Shown: positions 6,860 through 47,429 of the stretch, in pieces | Layout of the letters: each line of letters begins with the position of its first letter | How positions within the stretch are numbered: position 1 is the stretch's first letter | From: an uncultured Spartobacteria bacterium | GTDB lineage: Bacteria; Verrucomicrobiota; Verrucomicrobiia; Chthoniobacterales; Terrimicrobiaceae | Assembly (NCBI GenBank): GCA_937919825.1 | Contig: CALFPA010000069.1 | Span: 1-64,000 of the forward strand | DNA: 64,000 bases | Reading direction: 5' to 3' | Position numbers and translations under genes: made by a program | Notes under the pieces: generated by a model | Told to the model about the DNA's origin: nothing | Database searches by the model: none | The model's input: the letters and a program-made list of their open reading frames with translations, nothing else

Positions 6860-7327
6860 TCAAAGAAGTTTGGGTGGTATACTGAATTCCAGAGCGCCGG
6901 AGCCTTGTTCAAGCCAAGGCGCGTCGATGGCTGTAAGGGAGGCTTTGCGGATCGGGAAATTGACGGGCTCGGGCAATCCAAGAAGATGGCTTACGGCGGC
7001 GCTGAGATCGGGTTCATGGCCGACGAGCAGCACCGAGGATTTGGTGGTGAGTGGCTCGAGTTGCGCGATCAAAGTCTCGGGAGTCATTCCGCAGGCCAGC
7101 CAATCGGCGATGACAGGATCGACACCGATTTTTTTACCGACGATCTCGGCGGTCTTGCGAGCGCGGACGAGCGGGCTGCTCAGGAAAACCTCGGGTTTGA
7201 TCCCGTTTTGTTTGCAGAATTTTCCGACACACCCGGCTTGCTTGTGGCCTTTGGGAGTGAGTTTGCGCTCGAAATCACTCTCCGCAAAATCCTCGGCTTC
7301 CGCGTGACGAAGAAAGTAGATGATCAT
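6860..7327 (-). CDS. sixA: Phosphohistidine phosphatase, SixA type
   Basis: Small histidine-phosphatase-superfamily protein (155 residues) that removes phosphate from phosphohistidine in cytoplasmic phosphotransfer proteins. The catalytic RHAEA motif lies at residues 7-11 with the nucleophilic His8, followed by LTPKGHKQA, an SSPLVRARKTAEIV segment and the C-terminal LLVGHEPDLS histidine motif. Length and motifs match SixA rather than the longer phosphoglycerate mutases. The stop is four bases from the downstream glycosyltransferase start. The substrate is inferred from the family only. Confidence 0.82.
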   Translation of the reverse strand: MIIYFLRHAEAEDFAESDFERKLTPKGHKQAGCVGKFCKQNGIKPEVFLSSPLVRARKTAEIVGKKIGVDPVIADWLACGMTPETLIAQLEPLTTKSSVLLVGHEPDLSAAVSHLLGLPEPVNFPIRKASLTAIDAPWLEQGSGALEFSIPPKLL

Positions 7328-7344
7328 CCGGGGGCGGGATTTTT

Positions 7345-8097
7345 CTACATGCTCATCCCGCCATCCACGGCGAGGACTTGGCCGGAGATGTAGCCAGCTT
7401 CGGCGCTTGAGAGGAAACTCACGGCGGAAGCGATGTCATCGACCGACCCGAAGCGCGAGACGGGAATCTGCGCGAGCGCGCCCTTGCGGATTTCCTCGTT
7501 CAGCACGGAGGTCATGTCGGTTTCGATGAAACCTGGAGCGACGACATTCACGGTGATGCCGCGGCTGGCGATTTCGCGGGCGATGCTTTTGGTCATGCCG
7601 ATGAGGCCGGCCTTGCTGGCGGCGTAGTTGGCTTGGCCGGCGAGGCCCATGAGGCCGCTTACGGAGCTGATGTTGATGATGCGGCCCGAGCGTTGTTTGA
7701 CCATCGCGCGCAGGACGGCGCGGGTGAAATTGAAGGCGCCTTTGAGGTTTGTCTGGAGAACGAGATCCCAGTCCTCGCTCGACATCCGCATCGCGAGGGT
7801 GTCGCGGGTGATGCCGGCGTTGTTCACGAGGATGTCGCAACGGCCGAAGTCAGCGAGGATTTGGTCGCCCGCTTTTTGGACGGCGTCGAAATCAGCGACA
7901 TCGACCGCGTAGGGTTTGGCGGTGTCGGGAGCGAGGGCGTTGATGGCTTCGGCGACTTTGGCGGAGTTCGCCTCGGTGCGGCTGACGACGGCGATTTTGG
8001 CGCCCTCGGCGGCGAGGCGTTTGGCGATGGCTTCGCCGATTCCGCGACCGGCTCCGGTCACGACGGCGACTTGGTTTTCGAATCGTTTGTTGCTCAT
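7345..8097 (-). CDS. fabG: 3-oxoacyl-[acyl-carrier-protein] reductase
   Basis: NADPH-dependent reduction of 3-oxoacyl-ACP in fatty acid elongation, cytoplasmic. This 250-residue short-chain dehydrogenase has TGAGRGIG (14-21), NNAG (92-95), catalytic Ser145, Tyr158 and Lys162 (YAASK), and the C-terminal SAEAGYISGQVLAVDGG characteristic of FabG. The ATG at 8097 (MSNKRFENQVAVVTG) is chosen because the upstream frame extension runs into the acetyltransferase gene. No other fatty-acid genes are adjacent, so a related oxidoreductase role cannot be fully excluded, but conservation is strong. Confidence 0.88.
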   Translation of the reverse strand: MSNKRFENQVAVVTGAGRGIGEAIAKRLAAEGAKIAVVSRTEANSAKVAEAINALAPDTAKPYAVDVADFDAVQKAGDQILADFGRCDILVNNAGITRDTLAMRMSSEDWDLVLQTNLKGAFNFTRAVLRAMVKQRSGRIINISSVSGLMGLAGQANYAASKAGLIGMTKSIAREIASRGITVNVVAPGFIETDMTSVLNEEIRKGALAQIPVSRFGSVDDIASAVSFLSSAEAGYISGQVLAVDGGMSM

Positions 8098-11588: not shown

Positions 11589-12218
11589 TCATCGGTCGGA
11601 TTGGGGTTGGTAGAGTTTGGCGAGGAGGTCGGCGGCGATGGATTCCATTTGGACGGCCATCATTTCGATGCGGCGGGTGAAGTAACTGTGGGCGGTGAGG
11701 CTGGGAACGGCCACAGCGAGTCCGACGATGGTGGTATTGAGGGCTTCGGAAATGCCTCGGGCGACGATGACCGGGTCGCCCGAACCGCCGAGTTCGGCGA
11801 AGATCGAGACGAGGCCGGAGAGGGTTCCGAGCAAGCCGAGGAGGGGGCCGGCGCCGGTGGCGATCTCGAGGATGACAAGGCCTTTTTCCATGCGGGCGAT
11901 TTCGTGGCGCGCGCAGGTTTGCACGGCTTCGAGGTTTTCGGATTTCGACCAGTTGAGGTGGTTGAGAAGGGTGCGGAGGATGCGCGAGATGGCCGAGGGG
12001 CGGGCGTCCATTTCCTGGAAAAGCGCCTCGAGAGTGTCGCCTGGCTTGAGATCCTCGACGGCGTCGGTGATTTGCCTGGGGATGATGGTGGATTCGCGGA
12101 GGCGCCGCATCCGAAGCAGAATCGCGGTGAGCGAGATGATCGAGAGCAGGACGAGCAGGACCATGAAGGGCCCACCTTTTTCAAAGAAGCTGAGGACGGC
12201 GTGGAGCGTGGAATTCAT
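11589..12218 (-). CDS. exbB: MotA/TolQ/ExbB proton channel protein
   Basis: Pentameric inner-membrane channel subunit of the Ton motor. There are three membrane segments: an N-terminal one (MVLLVLLSIISLTAILLRM) and two around GAGPLLGLLGTLSGLVSIFA and LNTTIVGLAVAVPSLTA, with the conserved ExbB Gly-rich and Thr-containing helices. The length of 209 residues fits ExbB/TolQ. It overlaps the tonB stop by ATGA (12215..12218). It works with the ExbD at 11099 and the TonB-like protein at 12215. Confidence 0.88.
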   Translation of the reverse strand: MNSTLHAVLSFFEKGGPFMVLLVLLSIISLTAILLRMRRLRESTIIPRQITDAVEDLKPGDTLEALFQEMDARPSAISRILRTLLNHLNWSKSENLEAVQTCARHEIARMEKGLVILEIATGAGPLLGLLGTLSGLVSIFAELGGSGDPVIVARGISEALNTTIVGLAVAVPSLTAHSYFTRRIEMMAVQMESIAADLLAKLYQPQSDR

Positions 12219-13198
12219 CGATTGCCGAGGATCGTAAACGAGTAGTCGATTTCGAGGCGACCGTTTTCGAGGAGGCCCACGAGTTCTGGCGGGATGGGAG
12301 GGATTTCCGCTTGCAGAACGGCGGCGAGGCTTACGGAGGCGAAGCTTTCGTTCGACGAGTTTGAGAGGACGCGCGGGGCTTTGACTTTGCCGTTTGGGAG
12401 GACTTGGAAGCGGATGTCGACGGTGCCGATGTTCAGCAGGCCCATCTGGGAATTCACATGGTAATACCAGCGTGAGCCGATGGCGTCGGAGACCTGTTTT
12501 TTGTAGCGGCCGAGCGGGGTGGCGTTGGCTTCCACCGAGGCACGGCCGCGGTTCGAGATGTTGCCGCGCAGGCGGGTGATGCGGGTTTCGGGCTGGAAGC
12601 CGCCTTGGGAGGCGGGGCGGGCGGGAGTTTCCTTGGCGGTTTTTTCGGGGGTGGGTTTGGGCTGGGCGGTGGGTTGGGGAGTGGGCTTCGGGGGTTCGAG
12701 GAGCGCGAGGTCTTGAGTAAGTCGAGGGGTGGGTTTTGCCTCGGGTTCGGGTAGGATTTCGGCTGCGGCTGCGGCGGGTTGGGTTTGGGGAACGGCGGGG
12801 GCGGGCGTGTCGAGTTTGCCGGCGGTGTATTGTTGTTCCTGAAACTGGAGGCCAGGCTCTTCGCGGCCCTCTTGCGAGGGGATGGGTTCGGCTCCGGTGG
12901 GTGTGGCTTCGCTGGCGGCGAGAGAGTCGTTGTCGGATTCAAAAGCCGCGTCCTTGCTCGGGCGGCGTTCAAGGTTTTCCCGCTTCGGGGTGGCGATGAA
13001 TTGAGGTTTGGGAGTCGGCTTGGGCGAGGGTGGGAGGATGGTCAGGCGAATGGGTTCCTCGTCCAGAGGTTTTGGAGGAACGACGCCGGTGCTGGCGCGT
13101 AGCAGGAACCATGCGGCACCGAGAATGAGCAGGAGGTGGATGAGAACCGAGGCGAGCAGCGCCGCGAGATTTTCGCGGCGCTCGTCAGACCGGCTCAT
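12215..13198 (-). CDS. TonB-family energy transducer
   Basis: Periplasm-spanning protein that passes proton-motive energy to outer-membrane receptors. It has a short basic N-terminus (MSRSDERREN), one signal anchor (LAALLASVLIHLLLILGAAW), a long Pro/Lys/Thr/Glu-rich spacer (about residues 40-215) and a C-terminal TonB-like domain from about 225 (YKKQVSDAIGSRWYYHV ... VDIRFQVLPNGKVKAPRVL). The spacer is typical of TonB/TolA. The ATG at 13198 is the most likely start; one five codons upstream is possible. It heads the cluster with exbB and exbD; the cognate receptors are not in the window. Confidence 0.85.
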   Translation of the reverse strand: MSRSDERRENLAALLASVLIHLLLILGAAWFLLRASTGVVPPKPLDEEPIRLTILPPSPKPTPKPQFIATPKRENLERRPSKDAAFESDNDSLAASEATPTGAEPIPSQEGREEPGLQFQEQQYTAGKLDTPAPAVPQTQPAAAAAEILPEPEAKPTPRLTQDLALLEPPKPTPQPTAQPKPTPEKTAKETPARPASQGGFQPETRITRLRGNISNRGRASVEANATPLGRYKKQVSDAIGSRWYYHVNSQMGLLNIGTVDIRFQVLPNGKVKAPRVLSNSSNESFASVSLAAVLQAEIPPIPPELVGLLENGRLEIDYSFTILGNR

Positions 13199-13242
13199 GA
13201 CCCCCGTAGACATCGCGGGAGATTGGATCCCGTGGGATCGCG

Positions 13243-43925: not shown

Positions 43926-45275
43926 ATGCTCATCGCCTGCTCCCACTGCCAAGCCAATCTAGACATCTCTCCCGATCTCTACGGTCAGGTCGTTCAATGC
44001 CCCGTCTGCAATGGCAAACTCAAAATCGACGCCCCCGCCGAGGATCTTCCGACCCTCACCGGCAAGCCTGTCCGCCACGGTTGGCAGGAGTCCGACCACG
44101 CGAATGTCAATGCCCTCCATGCCTTCCTTATCGGCTTAGTCACCTCGACGATCTGGCTCGCGTGTATGTATATCCCGCCGATCCGCGCCTCGTTCGGTTC
44201 CATTTTCGTCGATCGCGGTTGGGTCGACTTTGCCGAGACCTGGTTCTTCTTCTGGGGTATGGCGATCATTTATCTCAAGTTTCAAAAAATCAAACACCAA
44301 GAGCGCTCGCTGCTGCTAAATCTCTTTCCCTCAAATATCAGTGAGGTTGTCGATTCCTCCACCGTCGGAGCCTTCGTTGATAATATCTATGATATGCCCG
44401 CCTCGATGAGAGACAGCATCATCGTGAACCGCATTCGCAAGGCCCTCGAGCTTTTCGAAGCCCGGAACAGCAAATCGGAAACCGAGGCCATGCTCAACTC
44501 CTCCTCCGCTGTGGATGCCAACCGAGCCACCGGCTCCTACTCCCTTGTGAAAGTTTTCCTCTGGGCCATCCCGATCTTGGGCTTCATCGGAACGGTGCAA
44601 GGTCTTGCCCAAGCCGTCGGATCCTTGAACATCGACGCTTCCGACCCCGAAGCCCTTAAAGCAGCGATCGGAAACCTCACCGGTGGTCTCGGCATCGCCT
44701 TCGACACCACGCTCCTTGGTCTGATCCTTTCGATGTTCATGAGCTTTCCCTTGGCTCTCGTCCAAAAGAAAGATGAAGACGCCCTCACTCTCATCGATGT
44801 CTTTTGCACCGAGAAGCTCCTCCCCAAACTCAATGAGGAAAGTGGCCAGCCCGATCCTTCCGCTGATACCACACTCGCTCAAGCCGAGAACCTCCCCGAG
44901 ATGGTGAACTCCCTCTCAAAGGCCCACTCGACCTTCTTGGAGAACCTGAACCAAGCCACCCTCGCCGTGCGACAGTTGCTGCATGATAACCAAAAGGCCG
45001 CCACAGAATTGCACAGCACCATGGCCCAAGCATTCAGCGCCTCGAATAACCAACTGGTCGAGACCCAAAAGGCGATCACCCGCTCCTATACCACCGCCAC
45101 CGATCAACTCACCAAGTCCGCCACCCAACTCATCTCCCAGACCGAGGGAGAGCTGAATTCCTCCCTCCGTCGCATCGCCACAGGCATCGACTCCTTCAAT
45201 GAAAGCATGAAGCGCTCCGGCATCCCGGTCCAAGGGGGCGGTGGTGGCTTCTTTGGATTGTTTAAGAAAAACTAA
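43926..45275 (+). CDS. MotA/TolQ/ExbB-like channel with N-terminal zinc ribbon and long cytoplasmic tail
   Basis: The 449-residue membrane protein starts with a zinc ribbon (Cys5, Cys8, Cys25, Cys28). It has four hydrophobic segments (about 62-83, 100-119, 207-232, 257-280). The last two carry the MotA/ExbB signature IPILGFIGTVQGLAQAVG ... LTGGLGIAFDTTLLGLI, with the conserved Thr in the last helix. Residues 300-440 are a helical, Gln/Ser/Thr/Ala-rich tail likely to be coiled coil, followed by a Gly-rich end. The layout is closer to ZorA-like stators with tails than to short ExbB. It is followed by two ExbD-like genes. The function is unassigned. Confidence 0.82.
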   Translation: MLIACSHCQANLDISPDLYGQVVQCPVCNGKLKIDAPAEDLPTLTGKPVRHGWQESDHANVNALHAFLIGLVTSTIWLACMYIPPIRASFGSIFVDRGWVDFAETWFFFWGMAIIYLKFQKIKHQERSLLLNLFPSNISEVVDSSTVGAFVDNIYDMPASMRDSIIVNRIRKALELFEARNSKSETEAMLNSSSAVDANRATGSYSLVKVFLWAIPILGFIGTVQGLAQAVGSLNIDASDPEALKAAIGNLTGGLGIAFDTTLLGLILSMFMSFPLALVQKKDEDALTLIDVFCTEKLLPKLNEESGQPDPSADTTLAQAENLPEMVNSLSKAHSTFLENLNQATLAVRQLLHDNQKAATELHSTMAQAFSASNNQLVETQKAITRSYTTATDQLTKSATQLISQTEGELNSSLRRIATGIDSFNESMKRSGIPVQGGGGGFFGLFKKN

Positions 45276-45299
45276 ACATCTGGATCCTTTCTGGAAACG

Positions 45300-46214
45300 A
45301 TGCCCGTAACGGAACAGCTGGAATCCCGCTCTGCGAGAAACCCAGTAGCGGAAAATGGAACATTTTTCGCCAAGCCCGCCCCTGCCATGAAGCCCCTGAT
45401 CGCCACCCGGCGCGGGGCCGTCTCCCTCTTCCCGTTCATGAGCATCTTGGCCAGCCTCATCGGGATTCTCTCCCTGCTCATCGGCTTGAGCATGGCGGTG
45501 AACCAGAAAAAAGAGGGAATGACCGAGGAGGATGTCAAGCGGGCGCAAGAAGCTAAGTCGCTTGCATTCTTGCTAAAACAGAAAAAAGCCGAGCTTGATA
45601 AAATCAAGCCCGAACCGACCAAAAACAACCTCGACGCCCTGGAGTTGGAAAAGCTCAAACTCCTGCTTTTAGAGCTGGAAAAGCAAAAAAATGAGCTCGA
45701 TAAGGTGAAGATTTCTCCGGAAGACGAGCTGAAGATGAAAATCCAGCTTTATTCGGAAGAAAAGATAGCCATCGAAAAAGGGCACCCGCCCATGCAGAAA
45801 AAGATCGAGGAGTTGAAAGCCAAAGTCGCTGCGCTCAAAGAAAAACCAGTTCCCAAAGAATCGGTCAAAATCAAACCTCCCAAGATCGGCACCAAGGCTC
45901 CTCGCAACTTGTTCTTCGTCGAGTGCAACTCGACTGGCCTCGTCCTCCGCGGAACCGGCGATGAGACCAAAATGATTACTTTTGAAGCCATCAAATCCGG
46001 CTCCAGTGTGGAATTTCACGATTATTGTATCAATGCCAAGCAATCCTCCGGCGAGGATTATATGATTCTCTTCCTCGTCCGAAAAGACGGGGTCCTTTCT
46101 TACAATTACGCTAACGCCCTTGCAGAACTCGATTTCAAGGTCAAAACCTCCAAACTTCCCGTGCCCAACGACGGCAAAATCGACCTCTCCGGTTTCCGCT
46201 TGAAGAAACTCTAA
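45300..46214 (+). CDS. ExbD-like single-pass coiled-coil protein lacking the TM Asp
   Basis: The 304-residue protein (an internal ATG at 45387 would give 275). One membrane segment at about 42-64 (VSLFPFMSILASLIGILSLL) is placed as in ExbD, but the position of the proton-carrying Asp is occupied by Ser. A long Lys/Glu/Leu-rich coiled coil follows (about 75-190), then a compact C-terminal domain (about 200-304) with YMILFLVRKDGVLSYNYANA and PNDGKIDLSGF. The downstream gene product has a similar C-terminal motif. Likely periplasmic except for the N-terminus. The role is unknown; a non-protonatable partner of the other ExbD-like protein is inferred. Confidence 0.72.
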   Translation: MPVTEQLESRSARNPVAENGTFFAKPAPAMKPLIATRRGAVSLFPFMSILASLIGILSLLIGLSMAVNQKKEGMTEEDVKRAQEAKSLAFLLKQKKAELDKIKPEPTKNNLDALELEKLKLLLLELEKQKNELDKVKISPEDELKMKIQLYSEEKIAIEKGHPPMQKKIEELKAKVAALKEKPVPKESVKIKPPKIGTKAPRNLFFVECNSTGLVLRGTGDETKMITFEAIKSGSSVEFHDYCINAKQSSGEDYMILFLVRKDGVLSYNYANALAELDFKVKTSKLPVPNDGKIDLSGFRLKKL

Positions 46215-46220
46215 AAAACC

Positions 46221-47429
46221 ATGCCTCAAAGAAGAAAAGTCGTCGAAGAGGAAGGAAGCAGCCTGGATTCCTTGATGGACGCCCTCACGAATGTCGTGGC
46301 GGTTCTCATTTTCGTCCTTCTTCTGGTGAATTGCGAGGTGTCTCAGAAGATTGTGCAAATGATGGATGATCTCGTGCCTGCCTCCCCGGAGGAGATTCAG
46401 AAACTTAAGGACATGCTCAAGCAACTCGAGATCGATAAGAAAAAACTCGAAGAGCTCAAAAAACTCCCGCCACCCCCTAAGGTGGACCTCGATAGTATCA
46501 ATAAAAAAATCTCGGCACTCCAGACATTGATCAAAGACAAAAAATCCGCGATCGACACCAACAATAAAAATATCGCGGAATTACAAAAACTTCATGATGA
46601 AAAACTAGCGGCTCGCGATGCAGAGCAAGTAAAGGCCGATGCTATGATGGAGGAGATCGCCAATTTGGAGGCCATGCTCGATACCACCCCTGTGGCTAAA
46701 GACATTCCCGCAACCGAGATCACCATTCCCGCCACGCGCGCCATTCCCAAGGGAGCCAAAGTTCATTATGTCTATATTACAGGAGACAGAGCTTATTTCG
46801 TTGATGCTCCCAAATACATGGAAGAAATCGCTGAGATTGTGGATAAACTCAAGGATGACAAGGGGAACCATATGGCCACAGGGGAAAAATCTGAAGAGGA
46901 AGAGGACCAAAAGTTGTCGGCTGCAGAAAAAAGGGCCGCTCGAGAAAAAGAAAAAGCTGAGAGCAAGAAAGAAAAGCCCGTTGTCTTTGATCGTGACAAA
47001 GTCATTCCGATCTTGAGTGAAAAACTGAAGAAAATTTTGTCTCCCGGTCTGGTCGGTAGTGTGCAAACAGCGCCTCATTGGGGTTTTGCTCGTATTGATA
47101 TTAGTTTTGACAGAAATGCTGGCACCCCTATTGAGGCGCTCACACAGCCGACCAACGGGTTTGCTTCCGATCTCAGCAAGCTTCGTCCGCCCAATGATGT
47201 GCTCATGTTTGTGGTGGATTCCCCATCAATGTATGCCTACGCTCTGGCGAGGGAAATTGCAGATAAAAAAGGAATACCTTGCGGGTGGTCGATTAGTTTG
47301 CCTAACGAATGTGTTTCCCGCACCCAAATTCCCAATTTGGCGATCAATGTGACTGGTAAAGCTCCAGAAAAGCCACCCGGCTGGAAACCGCCGGAACGCG
47401 CGCGCGGAACCGGGTCCAAATTGGATTAA
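46221..47429 (+). CDS. ExbD-like single-pass coiled-coil protein with TM Asp
   Basis: The 402-residue protein is seven bases behind the previous gene. After a charged N-terminus the segment SLDSLMDALTNVVAVLIFVL holds Asp20 at the start of the membrane helix, the position of the essential Asp in ExbD/TolR. There is a Lys/Glu-rich coiled coil at about 55-150, a second charged stretch at 215-260 and a C-terminal domain (about 265-375) including DVLMFVVDSPSMYAYALARE and KKGIPCGWSISLP, resembling the end of the upstream protein. The Pro-rich tail ends at 402. Probably the force-transmitting stator partner of the channel at 43926. Confidence 0.72.
   Translation: MPQRRKVVEEEGSSLDSLMDALTNVVAVLIFVLLLVNCEVSQKIVQMMDDLVPASPEEIQKLKDMLKQLEIDKKKLEELKKLPPPPKVDLDSINKKISALQTLIKDKKSAIDTNNKNIAELQKLHDEKLAARDAEQVKADAMMEEIANLEAMLDTTPVAKDIPATEITIPATRAIPKGAKVHYVYITGDRAYFVDAPKYMEEIAEIVDKLKDDKGNHMATGEKSEEEEDQKLSAAEKRAAREKEKAESKKEKPVVFDRDKVIPILSEKLKKILSPGLVGSVQTAPHWGFARIDISFDRNAGTPIEALTQPTNGFASDLSKLRPPNDVLMFVVDSPSMYAYALAREIADKKGIPCGWSISLPNECVSRTQIPNLAINVTGKAPEKPPGWKPPERARGTGSKLD

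Follow-up and report, generated by a model that had tools for sequence, protein, structure and literature searches.

A putative ion-driven motor with a two-protein axle encoded by a three-gene set in Verrucomicrobiota

Gene set and encoded proteins

The window (64,000 nucleotides, the whole stretch of DNA that was analysed) belongs to a 2.7 Mb Verrucomicrobiota genome and carries three genes, here called A, B and C, which were found to be real, intact open reading frames lying in one direction (window ORF check; Table 1). Gene B has a second in-frame ATG upstream at 45300; its start was placed at 45387, the most likely position judging from the sequences, because most homologues begin there. 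Identity between the window and a sister genome is 96% for A, 93% for B and 87% for C (dN/dS 0.13, 0.20 and 0.28, respectively), and by this measure all three genes are under purifying selection.

Table 1. Positions of the three genes and of their features in the window.
Feature	Position	Strand	Basis
Gene A, MotA/TolQ/ExbB-like wheel (channel) protein, 449 aa	43926..45275	+	PF01618 36.9 bits; orthologues in 28 clade-1 loci
Zinc ribbon of A, N-terminal: Cys5, Cys8, Cys25, Cys28	43938..44009	+	CxxC..CxxC in 28/28 clade-1 A proteins
Channel domain of A	44424..44774	+	PF01618 match 167-283; invariant Pro216, Thr223, Thr262; switching residue Thr261
C-terminal helical tail of A, ~147 aa, presumably cytoplasmic	44832..45272	+	Alignment A1; weak profile overlap with ZorA tails
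Gene B, putative axle subunit 1, 275 aa (304 aa from upstream ATG 45300)	45387..46214	+	ORF, homologues, AF2 model m46ec546ff3bf
Ser19 of B, where other sets have the presumed ion-binding Asp	45441..45443	+	Alignment comparison
Head of B, C-terminal alpha/beta, TolR/ExbD-like predicted fold	45864..46211	+	Foldseek
Gene C, putative axle subunit 2, 402 aa	46221..47429	+	ORF, alignment, AF2 model m935891bcf249
Asp16 (switching) and Asp20 (invariant) of the C membrane helix, motif DSLMDALTN	46266..46280	+	Alignment A7

Protein A matches PF01618 in the profile search (36.9 bits; cut-off 22.9), and Pro216, Thr223 and Thr262 are invariant among the 25 aligned sequences; by motif position we take these to be the conserved Pro and Thr residues of the inner channel helices of TolQ and ExbB. 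The zinc ribbon (CxxC-x16-CxxC, with nearly constant spacing) is present in every clade-1 member (28/28) and in none of the other clades, and the tail differs in length among relatives (alignment A1). An earlier sequence-only reading had seen in A a MotA/TolQ/ExbB channel to which a zinc ribbon of four Cys and a helical tail are added, and this is borne out.

The AlphaFold2 models of B and C agree with the layout proposed in that reading: in each, a single N-terminal membrane helix is followed by a coiled coil spanning ~100 residues and then by an alpha/beta domain at the C terminus (mean pLDDT 77.8 for B and 76.6 for C; the underlying alignments comprised the window and genome loci, with plasmid rows left out). 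The predicted head of B resembles TolR (5by4; Foldseek probability 0.97, TM 0.54) and ExbD (8p9r; probability 0.87, TM 0.63), both with E values in the range 0.01-0.1, and the predicted head of C returned no match among solved structures. Sequence searches of the PDB with B and C returned coiled coils only, and neither protein matched a Pfam family, PF02472 included; at E<=10 there was no PF02472 match for B or C in their own genome, in which six true ExbD proteins score. Comparison with ordinary ExbD proteins of the same phylum gave hhalign probabilities of 3.1% (B) and 1.7% (C). The term "ExbD-like", formerly applied to both proteins, would hold for the predicted fold of B only; it fails for both by sequence profile, and for the matchless head of C.

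Within clade 1 (see below) B and C match one another with a profile-profile probability of 99.0, and by this comparison they are diverged paralogues. The probabilities across clades were 99.5 for B1-B2 and for C1-C2, 98.9 for C1-C3 and 96.7 for B1-B3; like-with-like matches were stronger (B1-B2 2.9e-23, C1-C2 8.8e-23) than crosswise ones (B1-C2 1.1e-11, C1-B2 1.5e-13), and judged by these profiles B and C are the counterparts of the first and the second axle gene, respectively, of other clades. Since the clade 3 and cyanobacterial proteins are devoid of the long coiled coil, the matches are not coiled-coil artefacts.

Neighbourhood and host genome

The host genome encodes six further PF01618 and six PF02472 proteins. 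A separate, complete TonB-ExbB-ExbD set lies on the minus strand of the window (PF01618 11643-11993, PF02472 11117-11503, TonB_C within 12215-13213), which rules out that A-B-C is a second copy of the Ton set, in agreement with what had been stated before. The genome also contains an ordinary PF02472 pair outside the window, that is, two adjacent ExbD genes (G000:C68 45975-46790). No ton, tol or pal, gliding or Zorya genes were found in the flanks of A-B-C; no TonB gene adjoins the set, the TonB of the window being part of the other set, and no functional partner gene was found. SppA and SufT, which flank the set in the window, sit on different contigs in other genomes of the genus, so that an empty-site comparison within the genus is uninformative.

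Distribution of clade 1

Relatives were sought in 117 related and 388 phylum-wide genomes as well as in plasmid records. A tree of A contained four groups, and the window set was placed in clade 1. The order A-B-C is kept in 25 Verrucomicrobiota clade-1 loci with unrelated flanks, so the three-gene linkage predicted earlier was recovered in the neighbourhood survey; the clade-1 loci lacking the full order are two that are cut by contig ends and L091, in which the C gene is apparently replaced by a foreign ORF resembling the start of an ISL3-type transposase (7039-7356). The flanks consist of housekeeping genes that change from genus to genus. Among 124 flanking genes each Pfam family occurred at most three times and each PADLOC family at most twice, without enrichment of defence genes; neither Ton, Tol or Zorya genes nor any other defence cluster was found beside these loci, and here, too, the former statement stands.

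The set was found in 4 of 16 genomes of the window genus at two different sites, one shared by the window genome and G003 and the other by G011 and G005; the nearest relatives of the window set outside the genus belong to another order. This patchy presence at two sites, together with the relatives in another order, suggests that A-B-C moves horizontally between bacteria as a unit. The only close plasmid relatives in the plasmid records are two cyanobacterial ones. A viral origin of the genes was rejected, as viral contigs and phage records held no relative.

One alternative is a role in gliding or surface movement, for which AglRQS of Myxococcus would be the model. The number and type of genes are the same (one TolQ-like and two TolR-like, aglR-aglQ-aglS; PMC3169522), and the long coiled coils of B and C could extend towards the cell wall. 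AglQ and AglS, however, match PF02472 well and B and C do not, the occurrence of the set is scattered, and no Glt-like genes were noticed in the flanks; such a role is considered very unlikely.

Other clades and a possible role in defence

In clade 2, of which 23 loci were mapped, the A proteins are shorter and the set lies mostly inside operons with DO-GTPase/FHA, GAP1-N2, a protein of ~1010 aa, a GYF or CD225 protein and often a vWA protein. The loci of this type (L051-L053 and L110-L129, all Verrucomicrobiota) have the wheel gene and two axle genes within DO-GTPase/FHA - GAP1-N2 - ~1010 aa - GYF/CD225 operons; the B gene of L051 forms a fusion with a trypsin-like peptidase. Kaur et al. 2020 (PMC7159879) presented the GAP1-N2 systems as predicted conflict systems; TolQ, ExbB and MotA are absent from the main text of their paper. 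No GAP1-N2 gene is present in the genome of the window.

Clade 3 sets precede fabZ-lpxA-gspD-gspE or accompany a secreted repeat protein. In L104-L107, L165, L166 and L176 the set is located directly 5' of fabZ-lpxA, mostly followed by gspD-gspE (type II secretion), and in L107, L170 and L175-L179 a secreted repeat protein of ~650 aa is encoded between A and B. On the Anabaena cylindrica plasmid pANACY.03 (L085, 12312-16502) the set begins 78 bp after type III-B CRISPR genes and a CARF-HEPN gene, with a viperin gene nearby; an island on a Microcystis plasmid (L086, 5470-17331) comprises a type IIG restriction-modification gene, SLATT, an SNF2 helicase, the set and a DUF559 gene. More distant MotA-like genes were seen beside PP2C phosphatase and FHA-domain genes in Verrucomicrobiota and Rhizobium (L054, L087).

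Such company, with the CRISPR genes and CARF-HEPN of L085, the restriction/helicase island of L086 and the DO-GTPase/GAP1-N2 conflict genes, would fit a stand-alone phage-defence motor resembling ZorAB, in which the heads would sense damage of the envelope by phage and the zinc-ribbon tail would signal to a cytoplasmic effector or be the effector itself. The patchy presence in the genus agrees with this, as do the PADLOC families, of which ZorA is the best for A (ZorA2, 6e-13), and the A profile, whose top MotA-family match in the PDB is ZorA (8vvn, 2.8e-4); the cytoplasmic tail of ZorA is functional (PMC11890865). Against it, A remains far below the ZorA cut-offs (18.5 bits versus 500 for NF033917, 16.7 versus 100 for NF033915), B and C are without the ZorB/OmpA-like peptidoglycan domain (Pfam, PADLOC), no Zorya effector gene adjoins the clade-1 sets, and the 124 flanking genes are of the housekeeping kind. 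Membership in Zorya itself is ruled out by the ZorA scores and the missing partners. A Zorya-like role was retained as an alternative on account of how the set is built and of the genes that accompany its relatives, and is regarded as unlikely; the earlier suggestion of defence by analogy to ZorAB is weak for clade 1, with its housekeeping flanks and distant ZorA cut-offs, and may apply to those relatives that lie in conflict or defence clusters.

Concerted changes in the presumed ion path

Asp20 of C is kept in every clade-1 member (alignment A7). The residue of B at the presumed ion-binding position is Asp in 13 clade-1 loci and Ser in the window and the remaining clade-1 loci. Within clade 1, Ser in B goes with Asp16 in C, one helix turn before Asp20 (position -4), and Asp in B with Val at that place. 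The column scan showed that Ala stands in place of Thr261 of A, beside the invariant Thr262, wherever clade-1 loci have Asp in B (13/13); columns 97, 104, 210, 236 and 239 of A also change with the switch in B and C, the columns of A having been chosen for separating the two types and the independent switches numbering only about three. Combinations of A261, C -4 and the B axle residue were T/D/S in 16 loci, A/V/D in 12 and T/(E or D)/D in 19. Throughout all clades, Ala261 of A occurs only with Val at C -4, never with an acid there.

In the tree of A, B and C without the switching columns, the starred branches demand at least three switches. The clearest is that between L092 (Asp in B) and L094/L095 (Ser in B), which belong to one genus and share the upstream flank ribBA-ribH-nusB. 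Two simpler descriptions were discarded: Asp in both B and C is ruled out by the Ser of B in the window lineage, and the strict rule of Asp in B or an acid at C -4 is broken by part of clade 3 (Asn in B, Ser at C -4).

The concerted switching is evidence, at the level of aligned residues, for a single motor with a mixed B-C axle; it may possibly also come from recombination of gene segments. If B and C instead formed homodimeric axles of their own, A would take part in two alternative motors (A5B2 and A5C2), a question that is likewise unsettled for AglQ and AglS (PMC9389320). B of the window lineage, however, is devoid of the membrane acid that an axle homodimer needs, and B and C switch their residues together, which makes two separate motors quite unlikely.

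Motor model

We consider it reasonably probable that A, B and C make up a single ion-driven motor of the MotA/TolQ/ExbB superfamily, with a wheel and an axle and complete in itself, which would stand alone, apart from Ton, Tol and Zorya, and most likely serve envelope work or sensing. This reading draws on the conserved linkage, the membrane motifs, the paralogy of B and C and the concerted switching of the ion path. From the motor family (PMC9389320, PMC11890865) we infer the stoichiometry, the type of ion and the rotation, by analogy a pentamer with a B-C heterodimer (A5:B1:C1). A would be the wheel, a pentameric ring, with one helix of B and one of C as the axle inside. Ions would pass from the region of Thr223 and Thr262 of A to the membrane acids of C, Asp20 and Asp16, with Ser in place of Asp in the path on the B side in the window lineage. 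Rotation or strain would travel along both coiled coils to the periplasmic heads, and the long heads of B and C may touch the cell wall or the outer membrane; the zinc ribbon and tail of A may bind a cytoplasmic partner. From its architecture and relatives, and because clade 1 is not located in defence islands, the window set is thought more likely to act at the envelope than in defence against phages.

A broader proposal is more tentative, and we would give it somewhat less than an even chance: the sets may represent a class of ion motors that is widespread and has escaped recognition, whose axle always requires two proteins and whose ion-carrying acids have been traded between the axle helices. 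Such motors may have been built into GTPase conflict systems, CRISPR/defence islands and outer-membrane/secretion operons, the window carrying the stand-alone zinc-ribbon form.

Whether the two TolR-like proteins of AglRQS three-gene motors share one axle was stated to be unknown (PMC9389320); here, the sequences show that the wheel changes state in concert with the two axle helices. The natural variants differ in the number and position of axle acids, so that the two-Asp model of rotation can be put to the test in motors that exist in nature. Through the DO-GTPase/GAP1-N2 genes linked to close relatives, a predicted immunity-like system would gain a membrane motor.

Comparison with known systems

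ExbB-ExbD and TolQ-TolR have in common with A-B-C the PF01618 wheel, the conserved channel Thr and Pro and, probably, the TolR/ExbD-like fold predicted for the head of B; A-B-C differs from them by its zinc ribbon and tail, by two axle paralogues that have diverged strongly, and by the absence of a TonB, TolA or Pal partner. GldLM (T9SS/gliding) is similar in its long periplasmic axle and cytoplasmic wheel tail, whereas A-B-C is without Gld/Spr genes or GldM domains, and the channel of A is a clear PF01618 member. AglRQS likewise has one TolQ-like wheel and two TolR-like proteins per cluster; AglQ and AglS, however, are ordinary PF02472 proteins of 162-194 aa, and B and C are longer and contain coiled coils. 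ZorAB shares the MotA-like core, the long cytoplasmic helical tail of the wheel and a membrane Asp on the axle. The axle of ZorAB consists of one protein, ZorB, which carries an OmpA/Pal-like peptidoglycan domain, in contrast to the two axle proteins with other heads, the zinc ribbon and the lack of effector genes in A-B-C. The DO-GTPase/GAP1-N2 conflict systems are related in that their operons in Verrucomicrobiota contain A-B-C sets of a sister clade, unlike the window genome, which has no GAP1-N2 gene. As far as can be judged from its sequence, A-B-C would belong to a known kind of ion motor, and its unusual part would be the axle made of two proteins.
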